Shown here: in pieces, positions 4,196 to 17,406 of the stretch
How positions within the stretch are numbered: position 1 is the stretch's first letter
How the letters are laid out: each line of letters begins with the position of its first letter
NCBI GenBank assembly: GCA_015522695.1
Contig: WALT01000020.1
Location: 1 to 35,251 of the forward strand
From: Nitrososphaerota archaeon
Lineage (GTDB): Archaea; Thermoproteota; Nitrososphaeria; Conexivisphaerales; Conexivisphaeraceae
DNA length: 35,251 nucleotides
Reading direction: 5' to 3'
The notes under the pieces: model-generated
Told to the model about the DNA's origin: nothing
The model's input: the letters and a program-made list of their open reading frames with translations, nothing else
Databases searched by the model: none
Translations under genes and position numbers: made by a program

Positions 4196-4291
4196 TGGCG
4201 CCGCGGCCGGGATTTGAACCCGGGTTACCGGCTTTCTGCCCGTACCGCGGCCGACAGGCCGGCATACTAAGCCAGACTATACTACCGCGGC
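4196..4291 (-). tRNA. tRNA-Asp (GTC) with an 18-nt intron and encoded CCA
   Basis: The acceptor stem is GCCGCGG/CCGCGGC, with discriminator G and CCA encoded in the DNA. The T arm is CCGGG, TTCAAAT, CCCGG. The anticodon stem is CCGGC/GCCGG with CTGTCG at the start of the loop, so the anticodon is GTC. Between positions 37 and 38 lies an 18-nt intron in a textbook bulge-helix-bulge: a CTGT/GCAG central helix with three-base bulges CGG and AAA, and a small CCG/CGG hairpin inside. Cutting after the second bulge base on each side gives the intron ends. The mature body is 75 nt plus CCA. The intron needs the EndA and RtcB functions whose genes lie 11-13 kb away. Confidence 0.95.
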
Positions 4292-13249: not shown

Positions 13250-14455
13250 CTACCTGTTGTTCCCGCCGAGGAGCCTCTTGTGCTCCTCGTTCAGGACCTT
13301 CCTTATACTTTTATCACTTTCTCCTGTTAATTGTCCCAATCTAAGGATTAATCCTCCATTTTTTGCTGAAAATAACACAAATGTGTCAAAATAATACGTC
13401 ATAAACTCCTTCCTAGACACGTGGAACGCCTTGGACATCACCTTGGCCGTCTTCCTGAGGACCTTGCCCTCGTTCCAGATCCTGGAGGAGATGTTATAGG
13501 GTGTGTCGTATTCCGAGTATACGGCATGCGTTCCAGCCAAGCTCGCGGCCAGGATCCTGTCCAGATATCTCAGTAGCTTCCAATTTCTGGTCTTGATGAT
13601 CCTCGAATAGAGTATGTCGGCCTCTGAAAGCAGCCGCATCGACCTGGCGAACTTCGCAGGATCCATCCTCTGTGTGCCCATCGTCAGCGTGGCGTATACG
13701 GCCCTTATCTTCTCCTGGGGTTGTGCGTCCACGGTCCTCAATATCGCATATGCCTCATCCGCCAGTCCGTTGCTGGCCGCCTCCGTCACGGCGTCCCTCA
13801 ACGTCATCCTCACATCCCTATATCCCCCCTCAAATCCTCCACCGTAGATGATGGCCTGCAGCCCGTTTATCGCGGCCCTCATATCGCCACTGGCGTATTT
13901 GACGATGTTCAGGATGACCTCACGATCCAACGCCCGACCCTCCGACTTCAATATGTATCTGAGATATAGCTCCATGAGCCGTGACGGTATCCTCTTGAAC
14001 TTCATCACCAACGATGCTCTCTCCATCCCAGGCATGTGCCCCACATCCTCCCTGTTGGCGGCCATCACGAGCGGCACCGTTATGGATGAGATCAGCTTCA
14101 GGACGTACTCGGCTCCTCCATAATCCGCCCTGCCGTAAAGGCCGTCGACCTCGTCCAGGAACACCAAGATCTTGGATCCGAATACGGTGAGGCCTCCCAT
14201 CGCCGGCCTCAACCTCCTCTCCAACACCGTTTTCGTGCGATAGTCGCTGGCATTGAGCTCCATGACGTCGTATCCCAGCTCCTCCGCAGCGGCGTGGACG
14301 AGCGTCGTCTTCCCCGTTCCTGGGGGGCCCAGGAGCAGTGCAGGTTTAGAGCCGGGAACCCAGTGCTTGAGCCACGAATAGAAACGTGCCCTGACGTCCT
14401 CGTTACCGACCATGTACCCTACCTCCTTCGGCCTGTACTTCTCCGTCCACATCAT
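13250..14455 (-). CDS. rfcL: Replication factor C large subunit
   Basis: A 401-residue AAA+ clamp-loader subunit, partner of the RfcS encoded at 6-7 kb. It begins MMWTEKYRPKEVGYMVGNED, with Walker A GPPGTGKTT (43-51), Walker B VFLDEVDGL (DEVD 101-104) and sensor region MAANREDVG. RfcL lacks the SRC motif in general, and none is seen. The collar domain follows. The C-terminus ends EEHKRLLGGNNR without a recognisable PCNA-interacting peptide, which RfcL proteins usually carry at the very end. It is the third gene of endA-UbiA-rfcL, starting 3 nt after the UbiA stop. Confidence 0.95.
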   Translation of the reverse strand: MMWTEKYRPKEVGYMVGNEDVRARFYSWLKHWVPGSKPALLLGPPGTGKTTLVHAAAEELGYDVMELNASDYRTKTVLERRLRPAMGGLTVFGSKILVFLDEVDGLYGRADYGGAEYVLKLISSITVPLVMAANREDVGHMPGMERASLVMKFKRIPSRLMELYLRYILKSEGRALDREVILNIVKYASGDMRAAINGLQAIIYGGGFEGGYRDVRMTLRDAVTEAASNGLADEAYAILRTVDAQPQEKIRAVYATLTMGTQRMDPAKFARSMRLLSEADILYSRIIKTRNWKLLRYLDRILAASLAGTHAVYSEYDTPYNISSRIWNEGKVLRKTAKVMSKAFHVSRKEFMTYYFDTFVLFSAKNGGLILRLGQLTGESDKSIRKVLNEEHKRLLGGNNR

Positions 14456-14458
14456 GTG

Positions 14459-15289
14459 TTATACTATTCCTTCCACGATGAAGGTTATAAGAGCTATGCC
14501 CATCGGGAGGAGCATGGCCCTTTTCAGACGGTACGCATCCTCCGAGCCCCTCATCGTGATGACCTTACCCGTTATGAACAGGAAGATGATGTCGGCGATC
14601 GTTATCCCCGTCACGTAATACGGCGTGCATCCATAGAACACCGGTAGATAGCTCAGGGCGATGGCGGCCAGGATCAAACCGGCCGACATCAACGCCGAGG
14701 GCCTTATCCCCACGACGACCGGCAGGCTCTTGACCCCGGTGGCCCTGTCCCCTTCGATGTCGGCGACGGTCTTCACTATCTCGCGTGAGAGCCCAGCCAT
14801 AAACGAGCACATGAACATGACGCCCACGAGGATGCCGTTCATGCTGGCCAGCAATCCCCCATAGAGGAATGGTATAGCCATCGAGAGGGCGACTATCATC
14901 GTGCCGGGCATCCCGGTCTTCTTCAGCGTCCTGTTGTACGCATAGGACAGTAACGTAAAGAGCGCTGCTATTGACAACGTATAGGGGCCGGTGAGGGCCG
15001 ATATCGATAACCCGACCAGCATCATGACCAGGGCGAGCGACCAAGCCTGTCGTACGCTCATGTCACCCCTCACCAGGGGCCTCATCCGGAGGTTCAGGGT
15101 GTCGGTCTCGACGTCGAAGATGTCGTTCGTGACCATGGAGAACCCGGAGATGAGGAACCCCACGAGGAACCCCACAAGCCCGGTCATCCAGTGGACGCCA
15201 CCTCCGACGAGGTAACCGGCTATGACCCCTAGCCCTATCATCACGTCGTTGATGGGCCTGATTATCTCGAGCTGTGGCGGTGACCTCAA
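14459..15289 (-). CDS. UbiA-family prenyltransferase, probably digeranylgeranylglyceryl phosphate synthase
   Basis: A 276-residue polytopic membrane enzyme with eight or nine hydrophobic segments. The two prenyl-diphosphate/Mg-binding aspartate motifs are NDIFDVETD (55-63) and the later DIEGDRATGVKSLP. In archaea without a quinone context this family member usually adds the second geranylgeranyl chain in membrane ether-lipid synthesis. The opening LEIIRPINDVMIGLGVIAGY fits that subgroup. A menaquinone-type prenyltransferase is the main alternative. The start is a TTG that overlaps the endA stop by 4 nt (TTGA), so translation is coupled; rfcL follows. Confidence 0.85.
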   Translation of the reverse strand: MRSPPQLEIIRPINDVMIGLGVIAGYLVGGGVHWMTGLVGFLVGFLISGFSMVTNDIFDVETDTLNLRMRPLVRGDMSVRQAWSLALVMMLVGLSISALTGPYTLSIAALFTLLSYAYNRTLKKTGMPGTMIVALSMAIPFLYGGLLASMNGILVGVMFMCSFMAGLSREIVKTVADIEGDRATGVKSLPVVVGIRPSALMSAGLILAAIALSYLPVFYGCTPYYVTGITIADIIFLFITGKVITMRGSEDAYRLKRAMLLPMGIALITFIVEGIV

Positions 15290-15828
15290 TCCTTGGGCCC
15301 CCGTTGCAGCCCCGAGATCTTATAGTACACGACGTCTCCCCTGCGCTCTACGACGGCCAACACGGGTTCCTTGTTCAACCTCTTGGCTCTCCTGAAATAT
15401 TCGAGGAACCTCCTGGCACGGACCTCCAACCCTTCGTTGAAGGCTATCACCAGATAGCGTGCCTCCTTCTTCCCGTAATCGCCCCTATCATATACCCTGA
15501 GGTCTGTTCCGATTCCATATCCCTCACGGACGACGTAGCCTCGAGAGCGCAGATCCCTATATACCAGGTACTTCGTCCAAAATCGTCGCGATCTGCGCAG
15601 ACCGATCTCCGTCATCTCCCTCTCCGTCATCTCCCTCCCCTCCTCATCGGCTACGGCCCCAACCCCCTGCGTTACGAGGTATAGTGCCTCATAGGGCCTC
15701 AATTCGATGCAATCGTCGTCGATCCGCACGCCATAACCCCTCGCCTTGAGCCATTCCAAATCCTCCCCTTCACACACGATGAAGCGGCCATCTCCCGTGG
15801 CCTTGATCCCGATGGCTTCGGTCGGCAT
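15286..15828 (-). CDS. endA: tRNA-splicing endonuclease EndA-family subunit lacking the catalytic His
   Basis: A 180-residue protein of the archaeal tRNA intron endonuclease family, which cuts bulge-helix-bulge substrates. The C-terminal catalytic fold is clear: YLVYRDLRSRGYVVREGYGI, then GTDLRVYDRG with the expected Tyr113, YLVIAF, and VLAVVERRGDVVYY preceded by Lys153. The third catalytic residue, a His normally just before S-x-Y/F-L-V, is Glu122 here (KKEARYLV). The protein may therefore be a structural subunit of a heteromeric enzyme, with a catalytic paralogue elsewhere, or use altered chemistry. It has its own TATA box (15857-15867) and is divergent from rtcB. Confidence 0.88.
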   Translation of the reverse strand: MPTEAIGIKATGDGRFIVCEGEDLEWLKARGYGVRIDDDCIELRPYEALYLVTQGVGAVADEEGREMTEREMTEIGLRRSRRFWTKYLVYRDLRSRGYVVREGYGIGTDLRVYDRGDYGKKEARYLVIAFNEGLEVRARRFLEYFRRAKRLNKEPVLAVVERRGDVVYYKISGLQRGPKD

Positions 15829-15867: not shown

Positions 15868-15916
15868 CTTGCCTGCACCGGAGGAGGTGCCCACCGTGTG
15901 CTTCTAACTGAGGAAG

Positions 15917-15925
15917 CGTTTAAAT
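15917..15925 (+). promoter_or_regulatory. TATA box of rtcB
   Basis: CGTTTAAAT lies 24-32 nt upstream of the ATG at 15949, predicting a leaderless rtcB transcript. This decides the rtcB start against an upstream in-frame GTG at 15898. Confidence 0.6.
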
Positions 15926-15948
15926 GCCGCCCGGATAGGCAGCCAATC

Positions 15949-17406
15949 ATGGCCTCAGCCGGCTTACCGATCAGACAGGTGGACGAGCACACATGGGAAA
16001 TACCCCAGAGGGCACGGGGAGATATGAGGGTGCCGGTGAGGATATATGCTTCCGAGCTCCTCATGGACAAGATGAAGACCGATCGCACGCTCTTGCAGGC
16101 GGTCAACGTATCGACGCTCAAGGGGATACACAAGTGGGCTATCGTGTTGCCCGATGCGCATGAGGGCTACGGCTTCCCGGTCGGTGGGGTTGCAGCGTTC
16201 GACGCGGAGCACGGGGTGATAAGCCCAGGAGGTGTGGGATACGATATCAACTGTGGCGTGAGGCTCATAAGGACGAACCTGACCGTGTCGGAGGTCAAGC
16301 CGAGGCTGAAGGAGCTTCTGGAGACGATGTTCAAGCTCGTGCCCAGCGGTGTGGGCAGCAGCGGGATAGTCAGGGTTTCAGCCAAGGAGCTGGACGAGGT
16401 CGTGCGCTATGGGATGCAATGGGCAGTGGAACACGGCTATGGATGGGAGAAGGATCGCGATCATTCTGAGGAGCGCGGCAGGATAGAGTGGGCAGACCCA
16501 AACATGGTGAGCGATATGGCGAAGAGGAGGGGGATGGGACAGCTGGGGAGCCTGGGCAGCGGCAACCATTTCTTGGAGATAGAGGTGGTCGACAGGATCG
16601 TCGACGGGCGTGTAGCCAAGGCCCTCGGCGTGACTGGTGAGGGCCAGGTGATGGTACTCGTACATACTGGAAGCAGGGGATTCGGACACCAGATATGCAG
16701 CGATTACCTGAGGACGATGGAGAGGGTCATGGCCAGGGAAGGTATAAGGCTCCCAGACAGGGAGCTCGCGTGTGGACCGGTGGAGGCGAAGGAGGTCAGG
16801 GAATACCTGGCAGCCATGGCCAGCGCCGCCAACTTCGCTTGGACGAACAGACAGATGATAACGCACTGGGTTCGTGAGGCCTTCCAGAGGATATTCAAGG
16901 CTGATCCTGAAAAACTGGATATGCATCTATTATACGATGTAGCCCATAACATAGTAAAGCTGGAGGAGCACAGGGTAGACGGCGAGACGAGGAAGGTCTA
17001 CGTGCACAGGAAGGGAGCGACGAGGGCGTTCCCTCCTGGGTGGCCCCAGATACCTGAGGATTACAGGGACGTGGGCCAGCCTGTCCTGATACCGGGGAGC
17101 ATGGGCACCGGGAGTTGGGTGATGGTCGGCCTCCCCACCAGCATGGAGTTGAGCTTCGGCAGCGCAGCTCACGGTGCAGGTCGTTTCATGAGCAGGAAGG
17201 CCGCGAAGCGCAAGTACAAGTACAACGAGCTCATCTCGTCGTTGGGGAAGGATGGGATAATCGTCAGGGCATCGAGCATAGCGACGGTCGTCGAGGAAGC
17301 ACCAGAAGCATATAAGAACGTCGACGCTGTAGCTGATGCTACACATGCAGCTGGATTGGCAAAAAAGGTCGTTAGGCTTAGGCCGTTAGGGGTGGTGAAA
17401 GGCTGA
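15949..17406 (+). CDS. rtcB: RNA ligase RtcB (tRNA-splicing ligase)
   Basis: A 485-residue GTP- and Mn-dependent ligase joining 2',3'-cyclic-phosphate and 5'-OH ends left by tRNA endonuclease. Landmarks: PDAHEGYGFPVGGVAAFD and the metal-binding GGVGYDINCGVRL, GQLGSLGSGNHFLEI, VHTGSRGFGHQI, the guanylated-His motif VHRKGATRAFP, and the C-terminal GSMGTGSWVMVG. I start it at ATG 15949 (MASAGLPIRQVDEHTWEIPQ) because of the TATA spacing; an upstream GTG would add 17 residues outside the transcript. No intein is present, although archaeal RtcB often carries one. It is divergent from endA and overlaps the next gene by 1 nt. Confidence 0.97.
   Translation: MASAGLPIRQVDEHTWEIPQRARGDMRVPVRIYASELLMDKMKTDRTLLQAVNVSTLKGIHKWAIVLPDAHEGYGFPVGGVAAFDAEHGVISPGGVGYDINCGVRLIRTNLTVSEVKPRLKELLETMFKLVPSGVGSSGIVRVSAKELDEVVRYGMQWAVEHGYGWEKDRDHSEERGRIEWADPNMVSDMAKRRGMGQLGSLGSGNHFLEIEVVDRIVDGRVAKALGVTGEGQVMVLVHTGSRGFGHQICSDYLRTMERVMAREGIRLPDRELACGPVEAKEVREYLAAMASAANFAWTNRQMITHWVREAFQRIFKADPEKLDMHLLYDVAHNIVKLEEHRVDGETRKVYVHRKGATRAFPPGWPQIPEDYRDVGQPVLIPGSMGTGSWVMVGLPTSMELSFGSAAHGAGRFMSRKAAKRKYKYNELISSLGKDGIIVRASSIATVVEEAPEAYKNVDAVADATHAAGLAKKVVRLRPLGVVKG

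Follow-up and report, generated by a model that had tools for sequence, protein, structure and literature searches.

The 35,251-nucleotide stretch of DNA that we analysed (hereafter, the window) comes from a Nitrososphaeria (thaumarchaeal) archaeon and contains an EndA-like gene, P0001 (15286..15828, minus strand). The gene encodes 180 amino acids, and we assign its product with high confidence to an (alpha-beta)2 tRNA-splicing endonuclease, as the structural (beta) subunit. Enzymes of this type have two catalytic and two structural subunits, which are joined by the L10 loop and a pocket (PMC6379350). An initial annotation had located the gene correctly, without giving its strand, and had described the product as an EndA-family protein that lacks the catalytic histidine. 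It had also argued that a non-catalytic paralogue usually implies a heteromeric enzyme. The gene for an intact catalytic subunit in the same genome supports this view, with assembly and cleavage by the pair remaining the inferred part. Such a two-part enzyme is of an ordinary and already described kind: the (alpha-beta)2 type has been reported for Crenarchaeota, Nanoarchaeota, and Thaumarchaeota, and a 2014 review lists Thaumarchaeota among the archaea with alpha2beta2 enzymes (PMC4090602).

An EndA-like protein without histidine

P0001 contains both of the EndA domains (Pfam tRNA_int_endo, E = 3.6e-22, and tRNA_int_endo_N, E = 3.8e-10) and scores 74.1 bits against the NCBIfam model for endA (TIGR00324), for which the cut-off is 59.6. 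When P0001 is aligned to the EndA of Methanocaldococcus jannaschii (PDB 1A79), Tyr113, Glu122, and Lys153 correspond to the catalytic residues Y115, H125, and K156, and this assignment was the same from a HMMER alignment and from a MAFFT alignment of 90 sequences. This confirms the initial annotation on both counts: Tyr113 and Lys153 do align with the catalytic tyrosine and lysine, and Glu122 does take the place of the histidine. P0001 does not have the full Tyr-His-Lys triad of a catalytic EndA (alpha4 type). We also considered whether a different histidine might serve the active site, as a structure-based alignment might have indicated, but the whole protein contains no histidine.

The AlphaFold model of P0001 (built with 30 sequences; pLDDT 93.1, pTM 0.89) has the two-domain fold of EndA, and the L10 loop is acidic (E161-R-R-G-D165). 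The best match to the model in the PDB is the alpha4 enzyme of M. jannaschii (1A79; TM 0.85, E = 1.6e-14, 33% identity), which has the identical domain order; the predicted fold also matches both chains of the Aeropyrum pernix enzyme. In the M. jannaschii enzyme, however, every subunit is catalytic, whereas P0001 lacks the histidine and is accompanied in its genome by a second gene, for a catalytic subunit. In single-sequence searches, P0001 scored 83.5 bits against the subunit of the M. jannaschii homotetramer and 29.7 bits against the beta subunit of A. pernix. The higher score against the M. jannaschii protein is expected if the N-terminal domain of P0001 is still complete and only one of its three catalytic residues has been lost. 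It also shows that what identifies P0001 as a beta subunit is the pattern of paralogues, and not its raw similarity to the beta subunits with known structures.

The probable catalytic partner

We searched the organism's own genome (1.31 Mb in 34 contigs, 95.5% complete) and found exactly two EndA genes, P0001 and L001:1234-1779 (on contig C10); there was no third EndA-like gene at E <= 10. The second gene is what the initial annotation had suggested looking for: it encodes a protein of 181 amino acids with an intact Tyr120, His128, and Lys159. This protein is 27% identical to P0001 and is closest to the catalytic subunits from A. pernix (155.6 bits) and S. tokodaii. It carries the recognition residues Arg152 and Trp178, and its Lys38 aligns with Lys44 of A. 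pernix, which is the lysine of the "crenarchaea-specific loop." (In A. pernix, this lysine is responsible for the broad substrate range; PMC6379350.) The residues of the two proteins match the division of labour that has been described for (alpha-beta)2 enzymes, so the chemistry would be carried out by the alpha subunit.

The same set of two genes is found in A. pernix (3P1Z, 3AJV) and in other Crenarchaeota, including a catalytic gene with the Tyr-His-Lys triad, the loop lysine, and the Arg/Trp pair. Enzymes of the A. pernix type also have the same non-catalytic, two-domain structural subunit, with 170 amino acids in A. pernix (PMC6379350). P0001 differs from the crenarchaeal-type betas in that it keeps the tyrosine and the lysine, whereas the four that we sampled (L126, L130, L131, and L134) retain no part of the catalytic triad. 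The EndA of Methanopyrus kandleri (5X89) likewise has separate structural and catalytic units, and its structural unit has two domains and no histidine. Unlike P0001, that unit also lacks the tyrosine and the lysine. Furthermore, the M. kandleri enzyme does not have the crenarchaea-specific loop (PMC6379350), while the alpha subunit encoded by L001 does.

From these solved relatives, we infer how the enzyme would be assembled and how it would act. Two copies of P0001, themselves non-cutting, would keep a pair of catalytic alpha subunits (the L001 protein) in place. Tetramers of the (alpha-beta)2 type are held together by beta-strand contacts and by the insertion of the L10 loop into a pocket (PMC6379350), and here the acidic L10 loops of beta would push into pockets on alpha. 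Alpha would supply Tyr120, His128, and Lys159 as well as the loop lysine Lys38, and its Arg152/Trp178 pair would grip the bulges. The complex would then cut the bulge-helix-bulge motif in pre-tRNAs such as that of tRNA-Asp, and RtcB, which is encoded next door, would join the exons.

tRNA introns and neighbouring genes

The gene for tRNA-Asp(GUC) (4199..4291, minus strand) has an intron of 18 nt (4251..4234) at position 37/38. The initial annotation had placed this intron in a strict bulge-helix-bulge, and the sequence can indeed pair in this way (outer, central, and inner helices of 7, 4, and 3, with two 3-nt bulges). The minimum-energy fold is a different one: the best free structure for the whole precursor is at -46.1 kcal/mol, as compared to -40.7 kcal/mol for the cloverleaf with the motif. 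Because energy folding of the precursor did not yield the bulge-helix-bulge, our identification of the motif relies on the pairing, the position, and the pattern across the family instead of on the energy. The tRNA-Asp precursor is likely to be a substrate of the enzyme. That a genome with a histidine-less EndA should have such an intron had seemed surprising; because an intact catalytic EndA is encoded in the same genome, this is no longer a puzzle.

Other tRNA genes in the genome also have introns with the strict motif, namely those for tRNA-Trp (56 nt), tRNA-Tyr (50 nt), and tRNA-Ser(TGA) (14 nt). The tRNA-Met gene (L095, on contig C16) has an intron of 20 nt with the strict motif, which by our own reading is apparently at the non-canonical position 30/31. 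The intron in the tRNA-Ile gene (L100, on contig C15) is apparently at position 30/31 as well, and we looked for the strict motif in this intron and did not find it. The tRNA-Glu(CTC) gene, as read by hand, has an intron of roughly 14 nt, and the inner helix is missing. Non-canonical and relaxed sites of this sort are within the reach of (alpha-beta)2 enzymes that carry the loop lysine (PMC6379350).

A few other tRNA genes or tRNA-like matches were less clear. The gene for tRNA-Asn (L098:226-334) has about 33 extra bases, and the boundaries of the intron are ambiguous. For the tRNA-like match L107 (C1:35432), the anticodon that ARAGORN reported was incomplete, and ARAGORN found nothing in L106 (C7:20748). 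These two matches are possibly further introns or pseudogenes.

The gene for the tRNA-splicing ligase RtcB (15898..17406, plus strand; Pfam RtcB, E = 2.5e-174) lies head to head with the beta gene, at a distance of about 70 bp. RtcB is described in PMC12135372 as joining tRNA exons in archaea. Two families of the order have rtcB adjacent to the beta gene (seen in the window and in L036-L039): the two genes diverge in f1, and in f2 rtcB is directly upstream with the same orientation. Among the remaining relatives that we fetched, rtcB was not found within about 2 kb of the beta gene.

On the other side of P0001, the next gene downstream encodes a UbiA-family prenyltransferase (14459..15289, minus strand). 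Its TTG start codon overlaps the stop codon of the beta gene by 4 nt (TTGA), so the two genes are probably on one transcript. The next gene in this run encodes an AAA ATPase (13250..14455, minus strand; Pfam AAA, E = 8.2e-14), which we take to resemble the large subunit of replication factor C. Apart from family f7, most relatives have the UbiA gene downstream of beta, and the order of beta, UbiA, and the AAA gene is kept in many relatives.

The alpha/beta split across the phylum

We surveyed 61 genomes, comprising that of the window and those of relatives from the same family, order, and class. All of these have EndA genes, and most have two. (The relatives that are named in the genome collection are metagenome-assembled genomes of Thaumarchaeota, Nitrososphaerales, and Nitrososphaeria, and, more distantly, Brockarchaeota, Bathyarchaeota, and Helarchaeota.) Across 151 genomes from the phylum, most again have two EndA genes, and many of the exceptions are in a single family (f15). 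A search with a beta profile gave a second match, weak and short, in two genomes of this family; elsewhere in the family, a shortened beta may drop below the search threshold.

We compared 56 alpha and 63 beta sequences. Because we used the histidine column to sort the sequences, histidine is present at the catalytic place in 56/56 alphas and 0/63 betas by construction. The catalytic tyrosine is present in 56/56 alphas and 45 of the 63 betas, and the catalytic lysine in 56/56 and 50/63, respectively, so the full triad is found in all 56 alphas. The alphas also have the loop lysine (55/56) and both Arg152 and Trp178 (56/56). As a check that does not depend on the histidine-based labels, we built a maximum-likelihood tree, in which a single branch divides alpha from beta (SH-aLRT 98) and P0001 lies beside the beta sequences from its own family (support 98). 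Deeper branching within beta is weak and several of the sequences are on long branches.

These data also bear on the alternatives. If P0001 were a decaying or moonlighting paralogue that is unrelated to splicing, then the L001 protein would act alone as an alpha4 homotetramer. Beta does diverge quickly in some families (such as f4 and f6), as decay would predict, but nearly every genome in the phylum retains a second EndA gene, and the beta gene adjoins rtcB in two families. Furthermore, beta conserves E132 (62/63), Tyr169 (63/63), and the acidic residues of L10 (position 161 in 56/63 and position 165 in 58/63), whereas these acidic L10 residues are mostly gone from alpha. We therefore consider decay or moonlighting to be very improbable. 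It is scarcely credible that P0001 is itself a working endonuclease, with Glu122 or another residue replacing histidine as the general acid: it does keep Tyr113 and Lys153, but it has no histidine, a standard catalytic subunit is present in the genome, and the residue at the histidine's place varies freely among betas (Pro, Gly, Ala, Ser, Thr, Asp, or Glu), which implies that Glu122 has not taken on a catalytic role.

As structural subunits, the betas form a graded series: most have the tyrosine and the lysine, some from family f4 (among L046-L050) lack the tyrosine, and the sampled crenarchaeal-type betas have none of the three catalytic residues. Most betas outside of the classical crenarchaea retain both the tyrosine and the lysine, as if the histidine were lost first. 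A contig from Helarchaeota (L094; Asgard archaea) encodes a beta-type EndA with the tyrosine and the lysine and without the histidine; it lies near the boundary of alpha and beta on the tree, with weak support. We speculate, tentatively, that beta had a single origin, which predates the divergence of the Thermoproteota lineages and of at least one Asgard lineage; that the histidine was lost first; and that most lineages other than the classical crenarchaea kept the tyrosine and the lysine because these residues still have a function, for example in contacting the intron or the partner subunit.

In summary, this organism has a complete and standard pair of genes for the splicing endonuclease. 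More broadly, the series from betas that lack just the histidine to betas that lack the entire triad could help to show how a homotetramer comes to split its tasks between two genes.
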